Origin: Polyangium fumosum
Lineage (GTDB): Bacteria > Myxococcota_A > Polyangia > Polyangiales > Polyangiaceae
NCBI RefSeq assembly: GCF_005144585.1
Contig: NZ_SSMQ01000001.1
Location: forward strand, 248,001 to 312,000
DNA length: 64,000 nucleotides
Reading direction: 5' to 3'
Below are positions 7,078 to 49,523 of the stretch, in pieces (positions within the stretch are counted from its first letter, which is position 1; the number at the start of each line of letters is the position of its first letter). A model generated the notes under the pieces. That model did no database searches and was not told the DNA's origin. It was given only the letters and a program-made list of their open reading frames with translations. The position numbers and the translations under genes are program-made.

Positions 7078-9774
7078 ATGGTCACCCGCAAGGCCGAGCT
7101 ACCGCCGCCGGGCGCGTCCGATGTCCTCTACATCATCGACCTGTCGGGGTACGTCTTCCGCGCGTATCACGCGATCCAGACGCCCCTGACGAGCCCCACG
7201 GGCGAGCCCACGCACGCCACCTACGGCACCGTGAGCATGTTGTCGAAGCTCGTCGACGAGCGCAAACCGGCGTTCCTCGCGGTCGCGATGGACTCGCCCG
7301 GACGCACGTTCCGCGACGATCTCGACGAAAACTACAAGGCGCATCGCCCCCCGGCGCCGCCCGACCTTCACGTGCAGATGGCGCGCTGCAAGGAGATCGT
7401 CGAGGCGTACCGCATCCCGATCTACATCGCCGACGGCCTCGAGGCTGACGATCTGCTCGCGGTCGCGGTCGCGCGCGCGAAGGAGCGGGGCCTGCGGGTC
7501 GTGATCGTGAGCAGCGACAAGGACCTGATGCAGCTCGTCGACGCGGACCGCGTGATGCTCTGGGACGGGCGCGACAAGGTCTACGGTCCGGCCGAGGTCG
7601 AGGAGAAGTTCGGCGTGCCGCCCACGCAGCTCCGCGACTTGCTCGCGCTCGTGGGCGACACGAGCGACAACGTGCCCGGCGTGCCCGGCGTCGGCGTGAA
7701 GACCGCCGCGGACCTCTTGAAGGAGTTCGCCACGCTCGACGGGATCTACGCGGGCCTCGATCGCGTCAAGCGCCAGAAGATCCGCGACAACCTGCGCGAG
7801 CACGAGGCGGACGCGCGCCTGTCGCAGAAGCTCGTCAGCTTGCACATGGAGGCGCAGGTCGACTTCGACTTCGAGGCGCTTCGGTACGGCGGCGCGGACG
7901 TCGCGCGGCTCCGAGCGCTCTTCACGGAGCTCGGCTTCACGCGCTTCATCAAGGCCGTGCCCGCCGCGGCGCCCGTGGGCGGCAGCAGGCGCGCGATCGC
8001 CACGCGCGACGAGTTCGCTGCGTTCGCCGCAGAGGTGCAGAAGGCCGGCAAGCTCGCGATCGAGGTCCACGCGACCTCACGCGAGGCCATGCGCGCACAC
8101 GTCTGCGGCCTCGCGCTCGCCTACGAGCGTGGCCAGAGCGTCTACGTGCCGATCGGCCATCGCTACCTCGGCGTGCCCGCGCAGCTCGGCATGAGCGACG
8201 TCGCCGTGGTGCTCGGACCGATCCTGAGCGACCCTGCGATCGCGAAGCTCGGCCATGATCTGAAGTTCGTCGACGTCCTTTTGCGCCGCCACGGTCTGTC
8301 GCTCCGCGGCGCCACGTTCGACACGATGCTCGCGAGTTACTTGCTCGACTCCGAGGCGTCGCACGAGCTCGCCGACGTGGCCGAGCGCGACGCCGGCGTG
8401 AAGATGCAGCCGTTCGAGGAGCTCGCGCCGAAGAAGCGCGGGCAAGCGCAGCGCGCGCTCGACGACGTCGAGATCGAGCTGGCGACGGGGTACGCCGCGG
8501 CTTTCCCGGAGGTCGCCCTCACGCTCGTCGAGCAGCAGACGCCGCGCCTCGAAGCCGCGCACCTCGGCGACCTCTTCACGAAGATCGAGCTGCCCCTCGC
8601 TTCGGTGCTCGCGCAGATGGAGTACACGGGCGTGCTCGTCGATCCGAAGGCGCTCGCCTCGCTCGGCGAGGAGATGGCGAAAGAGCTCGCGGTCCTGGAA
8701 AAACGCGCGCACGACGCCGCCGGCAAGGAGTGGAACCTCGCGTCGCCGCGGCAGCTCGAGACGATCCTCTTCGACGAGCTCAAGCTCCGCAGCCTGCGCA
8801 AGACGAAGACCGGCCGCTCGACGGACGCGGACGTGCTCGAGCAGCTCTCCGAGGATCACCCGCTGCCGGGCATCGTGCTCGAACATCGCGCGATCGCGAA
8901 GCTCAAGGGCACGTACGTCGACGCGCTGCCGAAGCTCGTGCACCCGGAGACCGGGCGTATCCACACGCGCTGGAGCCAGGCGGTCGCGGCCACGGGGCGC
9001 CTCTCGTCACAGGATCCGAACCTGCAGAACATCCCGATCCGGACCGAGCTCGGTCGCCACATCCGGCGGGCGTTCGTGGCGCCGCCGGGGTTCGTCGTGC
9101 TCTCCGCTGACTACTCGCAGATCGAGCTACGCGTACTCGCACATCTGTCGAAGGACCCGGTGCTCGTCGATGCCTTCCGCACGGGGCAGGACGTGCATAC
9201 GCGCACGGCGATGGAGATCTTCAGCGTCGAGGCCTCGGAGGTGACGGTCGAGATGCGGAGGCGCAGCAAGACCATCAACTTCGGCGTGATCTACGGCATG
9301 GGCGAGGCCGCGCTCGCGAGGCGGCTCGACATCCCGCGTGTCGAGGCCGCGCGCTTCATCAACGCGTACTTCCAGCGCTACCGCGGCGTGCACGAGTTCA
9401 TGGAGCGCACGATGACGGAGGCGCGGCACACGCAGGTCGTGCAGACGATGCTCGGTCGTCGACGCATGGTCCCGGACGTACACAGCTCCGATCGTGGCCG
9501 CCGAGCGTACGCCGAGCGGATCGCGCAGAACACGCCGATCCAGGGTTCGAGCGCGGATCTCTTGAAGCTCGCGATGGTTCGTCTTGGCGAACCCGTCGTG
9601 CCGGGCGCGCGCATGGTGCTGACGGTGCATGACGAGCTCACGTTCGAGGTGCCCGCCGATCGCGTGGAGGAGGCGAAGGCGAAGGTGCGCGAGGTGATGG
9701 AGACGGTGTTCCCGCTCGATGTGCCGCTCGTGGTGGACGTGGGCGCGGGTCCGACCTGGGCCGACGCGCATTAA
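7078..9774 (+). CDS. polA: DNA polymerase I
   Basis: 898 residues from ATG at 7078, close to the family length. Domain order: N-terminal 5'-3' flap exonuclease (about 10-300, with IIDLSGYVFRAYHA, SSDKDLMQLV and GDTSDNVPGVPG), a 3'-5' exonuclease-like domain (about 310-500), then the polymerase domain with motif A (LSADYSQIELRVLAHLS), motif B (RRRSKTINFGVIYGM) and motif C (LTVHDELTFEVP). It fills gaps and removes primers in replication and repair. The proofreading carboxylates of the E. coli enzyme are replaced: DTE becomes EVH, the Asp of NLKYD becomes Val, and the Asp of YAAED becomes Phe. Proofreading is therefore probably lost, as in Taq polymerase. Confidence 0.97.
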   Translation: MVTRKAELPPPGASDVLYIIDLSGYVFRAYHAIQTPLTSPTGEPTHATYGTVSMLSKLVDERKPAFLAVAMDSPGRTFRDDLDENYKAHRPPAPPDLHVQMARCKEIVEAYRIPIYIADGLEADDLLAVAVARAKERGLRVVIVSSDKDLMQLVDADRVMLWDGRDKVYGPAEVEEKFGVPPTQLRDLLALVGDTSDNVPGVPGVGVKTAADLLKEFATLDGIYAGLDRVKRQKIRDNLREHEADARLSQKLVSLHMEAQVDFDFEALRYGGADVARLRALFTELGFTRFIKAVPAAAPVGGSRRAIATRDEFAAFAAEVQKAGKLAIEVHATSREAMRAHVCGLALAYERGQSVYVPIGHRYLGVPAQLGMSDVAVVLGPILSDPAIAKLGHDLKFVDVLLRRHGLSLRGATFDTMLASYLLDSEASHELADVAERDAGVKMQPFEELAPKKRGQAQRALDDVEIELATGYAAAFPEVALTLVEQQTPRLEAAHLGDLFTKIELPLASVLAQMEYTGVLVDPKALASLGEEMAKELAVLEKRAHDAAGKEWNLASPRQLETILFDELKLRSLRKTKTGRSTDADVLEQLSEDHPLPGIVLEHRAIAKLKGTYVDALPKLVHPETGRIHTRWSQAVAATGRLSSQDPNLQNIPIRTELGRHIRRAFVAPPGFVVLSADYSQIELRVLAHLSKDPVLVDAFRTGQDVHTRTAMEIFSVEASEVTVEMRRRSKTINFGVIYGMGEAALARRLDIPRVEAARFINAYFQRYRGVHEFMERTMTEARHTQVVQTMLGRRRMVPDVHSSDRGRRAYAERIAQNTPIQGSSADLLKLAMVRLGEPVVPGARMVLTVHDELTFEVPADRVEEAKAKVREVMETVFPLDVPLVVDVGAGPTWADAH

Positions 9775-43422: not shown

Positions 43423-44193
43423 TCACTTGTGCCGCGGATAAAGCGTCGTCCGCCACCCGAGCACGAAGGCCCCGCCGCGGATCGAGTTTCCGTACATGTA
43501 ATCGTACGCCAGGTACGGCCCCATTCCGAGCTTCGACCCGAACCGGAACCCCTCGTAAAACACCCCGAGCCCGAGCGCCGAGGTCAGACCTCCGTCGACG
43601 AGCAACGTGTCCTGATCGTCGGCCGGCGTCACGATCGCCGTCCCCACGCCCGTCTCCGCCATCAGCCCGAGATCACGCAGCGACCCGCCGAGCGTGTAGA
43701 GCGGGAAGATCTCCGTGTGAAACCCGACCATCCCGCTGAAAAACACCTTGTCGCCCGCGTCGAGCCCGATCGCCCCGAAGGTCAGGCCGAACGTCAAGAA
43801 GTCCCGCAGCGCCGCGCCCGCCCACGCGCGTGCGCTGAAGCCCGCGCCGATCCCGGTGTCCGTGTAGTAGCGCAGGAGCCCGATCTTCGTCGGGTCGTTC
43901 GGGAACCCCGACGCGCTGCCGAGCGACGCGCCGATCGCGAGCCCGAACGTGAAGCTGCTCCGTCGCTCCGACGTCACTTCGCGTAACGTCGGGTCGTTCT
44001 GGTCTTCCATGCCGCTCGTCCCGAGCGTCCGGATCCCGGCCTCTTCCTTCTTCGCCTCGGCTTGCGCCTCCGTCGTGCTCCGGCCGCCGCGCGGCCCTTG
44101 CTGCGCGTTCGACGGCGAAGCCCACGACAGGATCGTGCAGGTGAGGGCGACGGACAGAGCGGCCACTTTTTTCGGGGAAACAACCTTCGCCAT
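43423..44193 (-). CDS. outer-membrane beta-barrel-like protein
   Basis: 256 residues from ATG at 44193, signal peptide ending ASPSNAQQ (about residues 1-31). The mature chain has a disordered, Glu-rich start and then alternating, Gly/aromatic-rich strands (SSFTFGLAIGASLGSASG, TFGLTFGAIGLDAGDKVF) ending in TTLYPRHK, as in small transmembrane barrels. No precise family. Divergent from the double radical SAM gene with 30 bp between starts. Confidence 0.7.
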   Translation of the reverse strand: MAKVVSPKKVAALSVALTCTILSWASPSNAQQGPRGGRSTTEAQAEAKKEEAGIRTLGTSGMEDQNDPTLREVTSERRSSFTFGLAIGASLGSASGFPNDPTKIGLLRYYTDTGIGAGFSARAWAGAALRDFLTFGLTFGAIGLDAGDKVFFSGMVGFHTEIFPLYTLGGSLRDLGLMAETGVGTAIVTPADDQDTLLVDGGLTSALGLGVFYEGFRFGSKLGMGPYLAYDYMYGNSIRGGAFVLGWRTTLYPRHK

Positions 44194-44223: not shown

Positions 44224-46578
44224 ATGTCTCGCATCGCGATCGTCTTCCCTCCGATCCGCGTCTCGCGCGACTTCATCGACTACCCGTACTTCGCGGACCT
44301 CGGCGCCCTCCAGGCCGCCGCCGTCCTGCGCGCGTCGGGCTTCGAGGTCGACCTCGTCGACGCGCTCGCGATGGAGGGCGCGACGCTCGCGAGCCACGAC
44401 GACGACGCGGGCTACGTGCGGCTCGGCGCCTCGCTCGACAAGGTCCTCGCGCGGGTTTCGGCCGAGGCCGACGCCGTCCTCGTCGCGTACACGCCGTTTC
44501 ATCGGCCGCCCTCGCGCGACGATCTGCTTGGGAAGCTCCTCGCTGGTCTCGCCGCGCATCGTCCGGATCGTCCCATGGTCTTGGCAGACCTCTACCAGAG
44601 CGGCCAGCACGTCGTCGACGTCCCGTCGAGCGAGATCCTCGCCGCCTACCCCGAGGTCTCCGTCTTGATCCGGTACGAGGCCGAAGGCGTACTCGCGCGG
44701 GTTTTTTCCGATCTCGAACGACAAGGCCGGCCCCAGGAGCCCTTCGCCCTCGTCCCCGAGGAGCCGCCCCGCCTCGACGACCTGCCCTTGCCCGCGTGGG
44801 ACCTCGTCGATCTGCCGGCCTACTTCGCCTTCCACGAGGCCACGATCCAGGGCCTCGGCCGGCCTCACTGGGCCTTCCCGATCGACGGACATAGCGCGCC
44901 GATCCTCACGAGCCGCGGCTGCCCCTACCGCTGCGTCCACTGCTCCTCGAACCCCACGGCCCGCAAAGACGGCGAGCTCGTGGCGCCGAAGACCCAGCGC
45001 CGCTACGCCCCCGCCTACCTCGACCGCCTCCTCGGCGACCTCGCCGCGCGTGGCGTGCGCCGCGTGCACCTGCTCGACGAGCTCGTCAACGTGAACGAGC
45101 GGCACTTCGACGCCGTGCTCGACCTGCTCGAAAAGCACGATCTGCGCTTCGAGATCCCGAACGGCGTGCGCGCCGACTACGTCCTTCCGCGCCACGTCGA
45201 GGCCATGAAGGATCGGATGACCACGCTCAGCGTGAGCGCCGAGAGCGGCGTGCAGCGCGTCGTCGACGAGGTGGTCGACAAACAGCTCGACCTCGGCGCC
45301 ATCAAGGAAGCGGCGAAGCTCGCGCAGGCGGCCGCGCTCCCGATGCTCGTGCACTTCATGATCGGCCTGCCCGGCGAGACGAAGCGCGACATCAACGGCA
45401 CGCTCGCCTTCGCGCTCGACCTCTTCGAGGAGACGGGCGCGTTCCCGAGCGTCCAGTTCGCCACGCCCCTGCCCGGCACGCGCCTCGGCGCCGAGGCCAA
45501 GAAGAAGGGCCGCGCGCTGCCCGTCGTGAACGACTGGGGCCCGCGCTTCCAGCAAGCGCCGACGATCGAGACCGACGCCTTCACCGAGGACGACCTTCGC
45601 CGCTTCAAGTGGACGTTCGATCAGCGCATCGGCGCCTCGCAGGGCCCGAAGAAGGTGATCATGAACGTCACCTACAAGTGCAACAATCGCTGCACCTTCT
45701 GCGCGACCGGCACGCGCACGCAGTTCGACGGCGACCTCGACAGGCAGCGCGAGCTGCTCGTGAAGTACCGCAAGCTCGGCGTCACGCTCCTCGACTTCGA
45801 CGGCGGCGAACCCACGCTCAACCCGAACCTCGTCCGCCTCGTCGGCTTCGCCCGCCGCATCGGCTACGAGCGCGTCAACGTCACCACGAACGCGCGCATG
45901 TCGAGCTACGAGGACTACGCGAAGAAGCTCGTCCACTCCGGCGTCACCTCGATCCTCACGAGCATCCACGGCCCCGACGCGCAGACGCACGCGCAGAACG
46001 TGGGCGTCGCCGAGGCCTTCGATCAGACCGTCGCCGGCGTGAAACACTTCGTCCGCCTCGCGCCGCCCGGCGTCGAGCTCGGGGCCAACATCACGCTCAC
46101 GAAGTCGAACCACAAGAAGCTCCACGACGTCGCCGCGCTCGTCTTCGATCTCGGCCTGCGCTGGTTCAACATCCAGTTCCTCACGCCCTTCGGCCGCGCC
46201 ACGAGCTCGGTCTGCCCCGACACGAGTGTCGCCGCGGAGGAGACGAAACGCGTCATCGACGACTTCCGCGATCGCATGAAGATCCAGGTCATCAACCTGC
46301 CCTTCTGCTTCATGCCCGGCTACGAGGCGTTCCTCCTCGGCGACATGCTCAAGCTCGAACGGCACATGCTCTTCGTGAACAACGAGGAGGTGAACCTCTT
46401 CGAGTACCTGCGCGAGCGGCGCGTGAAAAAGGCTGTCTGCGAGACGTGCCCGCACGAGGTCTTTTGCGGCGGATTCTACGAGCTCGAGCAGGTCCCCGAG
46501 CCGACGTGGCTCATCCGGCCCGAGGATCTCGTCCGTCCGATCGGAGCGGATGTTCCGCGACCGTTCGCGCGCCCGTGA
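44224..46578 (+). CDS. double radical SAM protein (B12-binding-like + radical SAM + radical SAM)
   Basis: 784 residues from ATG at 44224. Residues ~1-150 have the B12-binding-like Rossmann fold (IAIVFPPIRVSRDFIDYPYF) but no DxHxxG, so cobalamin may not bind. The first radical SAM core has C233/C237/C240 (SRGCPYRCVHC) in a TIM-barrel to about 450, including FMIGLPGETKRDIN. The second core has C486/C490/C493 (TYKCNNRCTFC) and the SAM-binding DGGEPT. A C-terminal set C739/C742/C748 (CETCPHEVFCGG) with a nearby Cys in INLPFCFMPGY suggests an auxiliary cluster as in SPASM/twitch proteins. The substrate is unknown; neighbours do not resemble a known maturation pathway. Confidence 0.9.
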   Translation: MSRIAIVFPPIRVSRDFIDYPYFADLGALQAAAVLRASGFEVDLVDALAMEGATLASHDDDAGYVRLGASLDKVLARVSAEADAVLVAYTPFHRPPSRDDLLGKLLAGLAAHRPDRPMVLADLYQSGQHVVDVPSSEILAAYPEVSVLIRYEAEGVLARVFSDLERQGRPQEPFALVPEEPPRLDDLPLPAWDLVDLPAYFAFHEATIQGLGRPHWAFPIDGHSAPILTSRGCPYRCVHCSSNPTARKDGELVAPKTQRRYAPAYLDRLLGDLAARGVRRVHLLDELVNVNERHFDAVLDLLEKHDLRFEIPNGVRADYVLPRHVEAMKDRMTTLSVSAESGVQRVVDEVVDKQLDLGAIKEAAKLAQAAALPMLVHFMIGLPGETKRDINGTLAFALDLFEETGAFPSVQFATPLPGTRLGAEAKKKGRALPVVNDWGPRFQQAPTIETDAFTEDDLRRFKWTFDQRIGASQGPKKVIMNVTYKCNNRCTFCATGTRTQFDGDLDRQRELLVKYRKLGVTLLDFDGGEPTLNPNLVRLVGFARRIGYERVNVTTNARMSSYEDYAKKLVHSGVTSILTSIHGPDAQTHAQNVGVAEAFDQTVAGVKHFVRLAPPGVELGANITLTKSNHKKLHDVAALVFDLGLRWFNIQFLTPFGRATSSVCPDTSVAAEETKRVIDDFRDRMKIQVINLPFCFMPGYEAFLLGDMLKLERHMLFVNNEEVNLFEYLRERRVKKAVCETCPHEVFCGGFYELEQVPEPTWLIRPEDLVRPIGADVPRPFARP

Positions 46579-48290: not shown

Positions 48291-48710
48291 ATGGGCAGCG
48301 AGACCTACCACGAGCCGTACGACGTCCTGTCGCCCGCGGCTCGCGACATGCACCGAGCGCTCTGGTCCCTCATCGAGGAACTCGAGGCCATCGATTGGTA
48401 CGCGCAGCGCGCCGAGGTCACGAACGACGCGGAGCTCAAGGCCGTCCTCTTGCACAACCGTGCCGAGGAGATCGAGCACGCGATGATGAACCTCGAATGG
48501 ATCCGCCGGCAGGATCCCTTATTCGACAAGAATATCCGCACCTACTTGCTGAAGGACGTCCCGATCACCGAGATCGAGGCGAGCGAGGAGAGAAAACAAG
48601 CGGGTGAAGCGCAAGGGGCGAGGGCGGGGGCGTCACCACCGCCTGCGCCCTCGCCGCCGCGCGCCGGCGCGGGTCGTGGGCTCGGCATTGCCAGCTTGAG
48701 GAGGAGGTGA
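48291..48710 (+). CDS. encapsulated ferritin-like protein (EncFtn) with encapsulin targeting tail
   Basis: 139 residues. YHEPYDVLSPAARDMHRAL and SLIEELEAIDWYAQRAE, then HNRAEEIEHAMMNLEWIRR match the two-helix encapsulated ferritins. By alignment from memory with Rhodospirillum rubrum EncFtn, the ferroxidase ligands would be E30, E60 and H63, with W36/Y37 nearby. It dimerises, oxidises Fe(II) and stores iron inside the shell. After a Pro/Ala linker (about 105-127) the C-terminus GLGIASLRRR fits the cargo-loading peptide (LTVGSLRR type). The shell gene follows 3 bp downstream. Confidence 0.95.
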   Translation: MGSETYHEPYDVLSPAARDMHRALWSLIEELEAIDWYAQRAEVTNDAELKAVLLHNRAEEIEHAMMNLEWIRRQDPLFDKNIRTYLLKDVPITEIEASEERKQAGEAQGARAGASPPPAPSPPRAGAGRGLGIASLRRR

Positions 48711-48716
48711 ATCGTG
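48699..48716 (+). promoter_or_regulatory. Shine-Dalgarno of the encapsulin gene inside the EncFtn targeting-tail codons
   Basis: The last three codons of the ferritin (AGG AGG AGG, 48699-48707) plus TGA give GAGGAGGTGA, a near-perfect complement to the 16S tail. The encapsulin GTG starts at 48714, 6 nt after the core. The same bases encode the arginine end of the cargo tag and set translation of the shell gene. Confidence 0.8.
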
Positions 48717-49523
48717 GCCCTGGATCTGCTTCGTCGTGACCTCGCCCCGATCCTGCCCGAGGCCTTCGCGCTCATCGACGCGGAGGCGCGGCGCGTGCTC
48801 CAGTTGAGCCTCGCGGCGCGCAAGCTCGTCGATTTCCGCGGCCCGTTCGGCTGGGGATATGCGTCGGTCAATACGGGCCGGCTCCGCCCGCTCGGCGAGG
48901 GCCCCGTGCCCGGCGTGTCCATCGGCCAACGCACGTCGCAGCCGCTCCTCGAATTGCGCACGCCCATCTCGCTCGACCTCGCGGACCTCGACGCGGCGGC
49001 GCGCGGCGCCGTCGATCTCGACATGTCCGCGGTCGTGCAGGCGGCCGAGCGGATCGCGCGGGTCGAGGACGGCGCCATTTTTCATGGATATGCCGAAGGG
49101 GACATCCACGGCATCGTGCAAAAGAGCCCGCACGCGCCGGTGCGCATTCCGAACGTCACCGCGTTTCCGGCCGCGGTCGTGCAGGCGCAGGAGGTCCTCC
49201 GGTCGGCCGGCGTCACGGGCCCTTATGTGCTCGTGGCCGGCTCGCGTGAATACGACGAGCTCGCGGCGGGCTCGGACGACGGGTATCCGATCTTGAAGCG
49301 TATCGAGCGACAGATCATCGATCACCCGGTCGTGTGGGCGCCTGCGCTCTCGGGCGCGGTGCTGCTCTCCGTGCGCGGAGGCGATTTCGAGCTCACGGTC
49401 GGGCAGGATCTCTCGATCGGATACGCGTACCACGAAAAACAGCGGGTCGAGCTCTTCCTGACCGAGTCGTTCACGTTCCGCGTGCTCGAACCGCAGGCGG
49501 CCGTGGTTCTCCGCCGCGGCTAG
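48714..49523 (+). CDS. encapsulin shell protein (HK97-fold nanocompartment)
   Basis: 269 residues from GTG at 48714. The N-terminus LDLLRRDLAPILPEAFALID and AARKLVDFRGPFGWGYASVN are typical of family 1 encapsulins, as are SREYDELAAGSDDGYPILKR and the C-terminal strand LFLTESFTFRVLEPQA. Family 1 shells of this length assemble T=1 (60 subunits), although longer T=3 forms exist in myxobacteria. It packages the ferritin encoded just upstream and sequesters iron in the cytoplasm. Confidence 0.96.
   Translation: MALDLLRRDLAPILPEAFALIDAEARRVLQLSLAARKLVDFRGPFGWGYASVNTGRLRPLGEGPVPGVSIGQRTSQPLLELRTPISLDLADLDAAARGAVDLDMSAVVQAAERIARVEDGAIFHGYAEGDIHGIVQKSPHAPVRIPNVTAFPAAVVQAQEVLRSAGVTGPYVLVAGSREYDELAAGSDDGYPILKRIERQIIDHPVVWAPALSGAVLLSVRGGDFELTVGQDLSIGYAYHEKQRVELFLTESFTFRVLEPQAAVVLRRG

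Follow-up and report, generated by a model that had tools for sequence, protein, structure and literature searches.

The His-Xaa-Ser (Hxs) system and its HxsA4 type carry names given by NCBI models, and, for what HxsB and HxsC may do, a passage of a 2022 paper refers to Haft and Basu (PMC9062424). Two radical S-adenosylmethionine (SAM) cores in a single chain have been described in FbiC (FO synthase), which, according to a section of PMC11917521, makes FO with two radicals and whose halves also exist as separate genes. Here we consider a 64,000-nucleotide stretch of the Polyangium fumosum genome (contig NZ_SSMQ01000001.1, positions 248,001 to 312,000, forward strand; hereafter the window), in which one gene encodes a 784-residue protein with two radical SAM cores (the two-core protein, P0001; Table 1). 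We read this protein, at a probability of roughly 0.66, as a fused, bifunctional radical SAM maturase of an HxsA4-type system, a system which appears to modify chemically a small His-Gly-Ser repeat peptide. That the protein belongs to the Hxs pathway, whatever its precise role, is highly probable. This departs from the initial annotation of the window, made from its letters alone, which had seen no known pathway; co-occurrence and gene neighbourhood point to the HxsA4-type system. Handles beginning with G, C, L and f denote our genomes, contigs, loci and families.

The coordinates, frame and length given in that annotation, as well as its three cysteine groups (233/237/240, 486/490/493 and 739/742/748), were recovered unchanged. 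The Pfam radical SAM family PF04055 matches twice within one stop-free frame, each time separately above its 29.5-bit cut-off. Among aligned homologues the core-1 cysteines are invariant, as is the GGEPT string at residues 527-531 of core 2, whose cysteine triplet is at least 90% conserved. The extra C-terminal cysteine group is conserved too, and is joined by a fourth invariant cysteine, C695, which the annotation had missed. All four C-terminal cysteines are retained even in a homologue copy without the core-2 triplet and, judging from this conservation, they are likely ligands of one auxiliary [4Fe-4S] cluster. The SPASM domain is marked by the string CX2CX5CX3C; in the two-core protein this string is incomplete, with no cysteine four residues past C748, and no SPASM family is among the three Pfam families that match the protein at E ≤ 1. 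The N-terminal domain has a fold of the B12-binding kind and, by motif scan, lacks DxHxxG, both as annotated; no B12-binding family matched in Pfam at E ≤ 1. A DxHxxG-like string was seen in the first 180 residues of three of 68 homologue gene calls (L108, L132 and L152).

Two complete barrels in one chain had been proposed, with structure prediction as a check. The AlphaFold2 model, built from a 58-sequence alignment (mean predicted local distance difference test score, pLDDT, 87.8; predicted template modelling score, pTM, 0.87), orders its strands and helices as a Rossmann-like N-terminal domain, a complete barrel, a second complete barrel and a C-terminal extension; read from the predicted secondary structure, core 1 has the order of a (beta/alpha)6 barrel. 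The intact core-2 motifs and the completeness of the second predicted barrel argue against a core without a SAM-binding pocket, a weakness which the annotation had entertained. Residues 1-473 superpose on AprD4 (Z 27.4, root-mean-square deviation 3.8, 416 residues aligned, the range of this comparison extending to residue 744) and on MgmA (Z 25.5, deviation 3.9, 354 aligned), and also on OxsB (Z 23.8) and TsrM (Z 22.4). Residues 466-784, in turn, superpose on viperin (Z 22.5), SkfB (22.1), BlsE (21.7) and SuiB (21.4).

Family models agree with this division. Among the best 25 of 63 NCBIfam families, where the protein passes no curated cut-off, the nearest models are of the AprD4 and B12-radical SAM types for core 1, and HxsC4, AhbD and HxsC for core 2 (109.7 bits against HxsC4 NF038332, cut-off 500; 74.5 against HxsC TIGR03977, cut-off 267.9). 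By blastp the two cores barely match, at best over 20 residues (E 0.015). Because the cores belong to different subfamilies, with different family models and different folds, the protein joins, on these profiles and predictions, two distinct types of radical SAM enzyme in a fusion. Internal duplication of one core was considered and rejected, given the blastp result and the differing model and fold preferences. Cobalamin use by core 1 is possible but unproven, the predicted fold of residues 1-473 resembling both AprD4, which is not known to use cobalamin, and cobalamin enzymes, of which MgmA is one.

Homologues were sought in 116 genomes, that of P. fumosum included, a match of at least 50% identity being called close and contig-end fragments being counted. 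The counts given below for homologues, HxsB, HxsA4 and HpnH in these genomes, and for the two-core protein, HxsD_rel and HxsC4 in a wider scan of the phylum, are counts among the matches listed. Close homologues occur in 46 of the 116 genomes, most of them full length; six further genomes (G020, G095, G065, G019, G027 and G056) hold a relative of 31-33% identity, some of these partial, and were counted apart, those of G065 and G027 having a single strict CX3CX2C each. Full-length homologues are widespread in Myxococcota, with 92-98% identity in five genomes of the window's genus and 50-76% across many genera outside it; those of Polyangium sp. 15x6, 6x1 and y55x31 stand at 94-95%. A scan of species genomes gave 80 loci, 72 of them close relatives, from Polyangium, Minicystis, Byssovorax, Nannocystis, Paraliomyxa, Sandaracinus and others, many being metagenome-assembled genomes (MAGs). 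Four of the 72 had no gene call and six fell outside 700-860 residues, leaving 62 homologues, of which 57 were aligned with the window protein (alignment A2). As the annotation had hoped of such a search, homologues with both halves were found, and their neighbours in other genomes include Hxs genes.

Both CX3CX2C motifs are kept in 61 of these 62 homologues. Ratios of nonsynonymous to synonymous change (omega, dN/dS), obtained for four usable pairs (four of seven loci; L010, L013 and L016 were left out), range from 0.17 to 0.28 in core 1 and from 0.08 to 0.31 in core 2 and indicate purifying selection on both; a single C-terminal value of 0.72 (L012, dS 0.047) rests on few changes. That two ordinary genes were merged by a frameshift, of which the annotation had warned, or by an assembly artefact is practically untenable. 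Nothing in the window favours it, separate halves do exist in one related genome, and it is refuted by the full-length frame, which recurs in dozens of isolate and MAG assemblies.

The evidence for a role in the Hxs pathway begins with the genome of P. fumosum itself. It encodes HxsA4 (NF038313, cut-off 55; contig C144, L167, 13269-13616; 96 bits for the 80-residue reading and 111 in the genome scan), HxsB (TIGR03978, cut-off 370; C144:67814-69220, 546.9 bits), the HxsD-like protein HxsD_rel (NF038315, cut-off 41; C144:67524-67727, 75.2 bits) and, on a separate contig from HxsA4, HxsC4 (NF038332, cut-off 500; C200:21728-22717, 594.4 bits). On C144 the gene of an (HGS)n peptide directly follows those of an HxsD-like protein, HxsD_rel and HxsB. 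The annotation's remark that nothing nearby shows a precursor is consistent with the window genes inspected; the precursor-like peptide lies elsewhere in the same genome. A further radical SAM protein, the partner (538 residues in this genome, with the marker HEKRNWVRL), is HxsC-like but below cut-off.

Frames ending in QHCS(HGS)nW lie near HxsB in many loci. A pattern allowing only HGS or HGSW ends returned 21 distinct peptides with 8 to 58 HGS units, all 21 ending in W and one beginning with QHGS. Across HxsA4-type peptides (L102, L106, L117, L203, L205, L206 and others) the repeat number varies widely and the HGSW end is constant in those seen; the start is mostly QHCS, with QHGS, QHAS, GHGS and THCS as variants. 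Also in L167, a gene for a 167-residue protein (7582-8085, plus strand) is immediately followed by one for a 283-residue HxsC-like radical SAM protein (8090-8941, plus strand). Some relatives of the 167-residue protein have an N-terminus resembling a Tat signal peptide, and inspection by eye showed comparable pairs at several other Hxs loci; might this protein be a second substrate or a partner?

The two-core protein and the Hxs genes co-occur strongly across genomes. The partner is present in 53 of the 116 genomes, including all 46 with a close homologue, and five of the seven others hold one of the 31-33% relatives; in no bin of genome size (below 6, 6-9 and above 9 Mb) does the two-core gene occur without it. 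HxsD_rel, over cut-off in each of the 50 genomes that have it, accompanies 44 of the 46 close homologues, or 49 of 52 when the weak ones are counted, while HxsA4 and HxsB exceed their cut-offs in 42 and 43 of the 46, respectively. On the scale of 377 Myxococcota genomes, HxsD_rel was found at E ≤ 0.001 in 82 of the 84 with a two-core protein (80 over cut-off), and the two without it are MAGs that are 67% and 58% complete. These 84 comprise 83 genomes with an A1 match of at least 306 bits, some fragments or split, and G021, where the match is a fragment of 212 bits; they exclude G168, in which core 1 alone matched (220 bits). Overall, HxsD_rel is found in 125 of the 377 at E ≤ 0.001 and over cut-off in 117. 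Genome lists, sizes and the count of linked genomes given next were compiled by hand from tables, and single slips are possible.

Physical linkage was read from coordinates. The two-core gene and HxsD_rel lie on a common contig, no more than 50 kb from each other, in 20 genomes drawn from several families; the window's genus and G036 have them hundreds of kb apart or on separate contigs. In the distant genome G285 the two-core gene closes a same-strand string of closely spaced genes, after an HxsD-like gene, HxsD_rel (61.2 bits) and HxsB (475.9 bits). Two further loci, in Minicystis rosea (G043, L039) and a Byssovorax MAG (G008, L055), have HxsB (543 and 549 bits) at most about 2.5 kb from the two-core gene, and both also contain HxsD_rel (63 and 62 bits; cut-off 41) and an HxsD-like gene; the Minicystis copy, the only one scored, reaches 39.8 bits against HxsD TIGR03976 (cut-off 50). 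Finally, in G186, G415 and G199 a 20-kb stretch holds the two-core gene, an (HGS)n peptide and, by motif and blast reading, six or seven radical SAM proteins, with HxsB, HxsC4 and HxsD_rel over cut-off and a radical SAM protein that has the partner's start motif.

Whether both cores are catalytic can be approached through genomes in which they have come apart. G032, G070 and G042 each hold two relatives whose halves have drifted in complementary fashion (L053/L054, L074/L073 and L075/L076). In copy A, core 1 is 64-65% identical to the window protein and core 2 has drifted to 31-39%, its cysteine triplet being kept in G070 and G042 and entirely lost in G032; in copy B, core 2 stands at 63-77% identity, the first half has decayed to 25-28% and the core-1 triplet is lost. 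In all three genomes copy B is divergent beside a gene that starts like HxsC4, the one in G032 passing the HxsC4 cut-off. A core-2 tree (single FastTree runs, support values not inspected) groups copy B of G032 with G106, G082 and G097, and those of G042 and G070 with G036, G043, G008 and Polyangium. Because the tree places them apart, complementary drift probably arose twice. The same placement lends no support to copy B as an in-genome duplicate; acquisition by transfer is perhaps the likelier origin. G122 carries the separation further: a 470-residue protein corresponds to core 1 alone (36.6% identity; PF04055, 47.7 bits), while core 2 is part of a different, 1004-residue protein (41.8% identity) with a further radical SAM core.

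Since the halves drift complementarily in co-resident copies and are separate genes in G122, the cores appear separable, which suggests that both activities are wanted, though not necessarily in one chain. The initial annotation had offered two options, that one substrate undergoes two sequential steps or that the two halves act on partners; complementary drift and separate genes better fit an amended version, separable catalytic steps in one pathway. The same copies bear on the possibility that a single core is catalytic, the other being a structural or peptide-binding part which keeps its motif by descent. Copy A of G032, without any of the three core-2 cysteines, and the three second copies without core 1 might be taken as examples. 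Each triplet lost in G032, G070 and G042 is, however, matched by a second gene that keeps it, and both activities would therefore seem to be needed; together with the retention of both motifs in nearly all homologues and the selection on both cores, this makes a single catalytic core quite improbable.

The case for a fused Hxs maturase must be set against several observations that weigh on the other side. The main weakness is that the co-occurrence counts are raw, without correction for the tree, and the HpnH profile intended as a control was uninformative (over cut-off in three of 116 genomes). In the genome of P. fumosum the two-core gene is unlinked to the Hxs genes (C111, as against C144, C22 and C200). 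Its protein stays under the curated cut-offs of both HxsC and HxsC4, and HxsA4 is no more than a putative substrate for it. On the 12.7-kb contig of G285, which has the tightest gene string, the pattern found no HGS-repeat peptide, and its HxsD-like protein has no NCBIfam match at E ≤ 1e-12. One of the 62 homologues, copy A of G032 (L150/L053), lacks all three core-2 cysteines, and G067, a MAG that is 82% complete, yielded copy A (core 2 at 37%) and no copy B. Lastly, Hxs genes occur without the two-core gene: HxsD_rel in 43 of the 125 matching genomes of the 377, and, among the 116, HxsB over cut-off in nine of 52 genomes without a close homologue and HxsA4 in seven of 49, five of the nine and five of the seven having a 31-33% relative. 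Because HxsD_rel, HxsB and HxsA4 also occur in this way, the two-core protein is, as far as its distribution indicates, a component of some, not all, HxsA4-type systems.

Some of these observations would suit a link to Hxs that is not functional, both being carried by the same lineages rich in radical SAM proteins: the uncorrected counts, the unlinked gene and, in addition, the 58 radical SAM matches in the genome of P. fumosum. Within family f1 (71 genomes), however, presence of the two-core protein is patchy and still matched, with HxsD_rel in 27 of the 28 genomes that have a close homologue. The partner association in every genome-size bin, the G285 string and the clusters in G415, G186, G199, G008 and G043 argue in the same direction, and we regard a shared lineage as a very improbable account.

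A more serious alternative, though still an unlikely one, is modelled on FbiC: the cores would make or join a small molecule (a cofactor or modified group) used by the Hxs system, an intermediate being passed between them and the HxsA4 peptide left untouched. According to a section of PMC11917521, many bacteria have the halves of FbiC fused and archaea keep them apart, much as in the split case of G122. The best fold match of core 1, AprD4, was solved with the sugar-type substrate paromamine, and in the window's genome the two-core gene lies away from the peptide gene. Against this, the resemblance of core 2 is to HxsC-type models and to the peptide maturases SkfB and SuiB, yet viperin, solved with nucleotides, scores as high; the two-core gene also keeps company with a peptide gene and with HxsB, a protein of maturase type.

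For the fused peptide maturase that we favour, the following mechanism may be envisaged. Each core would bind its own [4Fe-4S] cluster and SAM and generate a 5'-deoxyadenosyl radical of its own. Equipped with one auxiliary cluster at the C-terminus, core 2 would act on the HGS-repeat peptide in the manner of other SPASM-type maturases of ribosomally synthesized and post-translationally modified peptides, and the AprD4/MgmA-like core 1 would make a second, different change, possibly with cobalamin, on the same peptide or on residues already altered by a partner. Fusion would then let one protein install both changes along the repeat.

A larger picture may be drawn, tentatively and at less than even odds, from profiles and neighbourhoods: at least seven radical SAM proteins, dispersed over the genome of P. 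fumosum and with nine cores between them, would all work on one His-Gly-Ser repeat peptide, the fused cores making two different radical changes repeat by repeat. Besides the two-core protein, this set would comprise a second two-core family on C197, HxsB, HxsC4 and, at C144 and C22, three HxsC-like proteins; among these three, profile scores are available for the partner alone. If true, this would be an unusually large radical SAM team for a single peptide. The C197 protein (L207, 6830-8659, plus strand; 609 residues) is unrelated to the first, with CX3CX2C at residues 15 and 331 and 142.7 bits to PF04055 over two stretches. At E ≤ 1e-40 it has relatives in 41 of the 116 genomes, all 41 of them with the HEKRNWVRL partner; in G082 and G090 such a relative is no more than 2 kb away from the two-core gene. 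Its divergent neighbour (L207, 3760-6768, minus strand) encodes 1002 residues with CX3CX2C near the N-terminus, one Pfam radical SAM domain and a GFO/IDH/MocA oxidoreductase domain. The annotation's view that proteins with two full barrels are rare thus needs qualification, FbiC and at least this one further protein in the same genome being additional cases.

Within the window, the gene adjoining the two-core gene (Table 1) encodes a secreted-looking protein of family f2, without a Pfam match at E ≤ 0.01. The family has nine members in nine of 41 clustered sources, the window included, and adjoins the two-core gene in nine of nine; it is a possible partner of the two-core protein. The remaining neighbours include homologues of phosphomannomutase and PrmC, an encapsulin with EncFtn-like cargo and genes without a Pfam match, and no pathway emerged from those inspected when a function was sought among them. 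The encapsulin shell gene (48291-49523, plus strand; PF04454, 282.8 bits) directly follows that of the EncFtn-like cargo ferritin (PF22277, 125.9 bits), an order repeated, by eye, in congener locus L056, with no sign of Hxs membership.

Table 1. The two-core gene and its parts, with the adjoining gene, in positions of the window
Feature	Positions	Strand	Basis or remark
Two-core radical SAM protein (P0001), 784 residues	44224..46578	+	Uninterrupted frame, ATG at 44224, stop at 46576-46578
N-terminal Rossmann-like (B12-binding-like) domain, residues ~1-185	44224..44778	+	Secondary structure and fold matches over ~1-473; without DxHxxG
Core 1, residues ~186-465, complete barrel of the AprD4/B12-radical SAM kind	44779..45618	+	PF04055 60.8 bits, family models below cut-off, AlphaFold2, fold matches
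Core-1 CX3CX2C (C233, C237, C240)	44920..44943	+	Invariant in alignments
Core 2, residues ~466-690, complete barrel of the HxsC/SPASM-maturase kind	45619..46293	+	PF04055 63.3 bits, NF038332 and TIGR03977 below cut-off, fold matches
Core-2 CX3CX2C (C486, C490, C493)	45679..45702	+	Motif scan, alignments
C-terminal cysteines C695 and C739-X2-C742-X5-C748	46306..46467	+	Invariant columns of 25 and 58 aligned homologues
Divergent protein, ~247-256 residues (start uncertain), signal-peptide-like start	43423..44166	-	Family f2, adjoins the two-core gene

We found no paper on the two-core protein or on HxsA4 biochemistry in the PMC literature searched, and the protein would add a concrete new component to a peptide system whose families have curated names. 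The natural split of the cores supplies ready-made single-core versions, copy B of G070 or G042 for core 2 and the 470-residue protein of G122 for core 1. Should both cores act on the HGS repeats, they would represent a new way to install two kinds of radical modification along a repetitive peptide. With likely enzymes dispersed across the genome, an Hxs system in Myxococcota can extend beyond its local gene cluster.

The two-core protein shares features with several described systems. AprD4 (PDB 6fd2) and MgmA (PDB 9ccb) share the fold of residues ~1-473 and are shorter, single-core chains (454 and 417 residues) at 20-23% identity. SkfB (PDB 6efn) and SuiB (PDB 5v1q) share the fold of residues 466-784 and have the C-terminal CX2CX5C in common with it, whereas the four C-terminal cysteines of the two-core protein suggest one auxiliary cluster, not two. 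The halves of FbiC are CofG and CofH; here they are AprD4/MgmA-like and viperin/SkfB/SuiB-like, in the context of a peptide system and not of F420. CofG and CofH were not among the best 25 of 63 NCBIfam families, in a comparison which included no search aimed at them. Far below the cut-offs of both HxsC and HxsC4, the protein is classed as neither. All four HxsA4-type families are nevertheless over cut-off in its own genome and co-occur with its gene elsewhere and, as far as we have seen, it is a new, fused component of a known, apparently uncharacterised kind of system.

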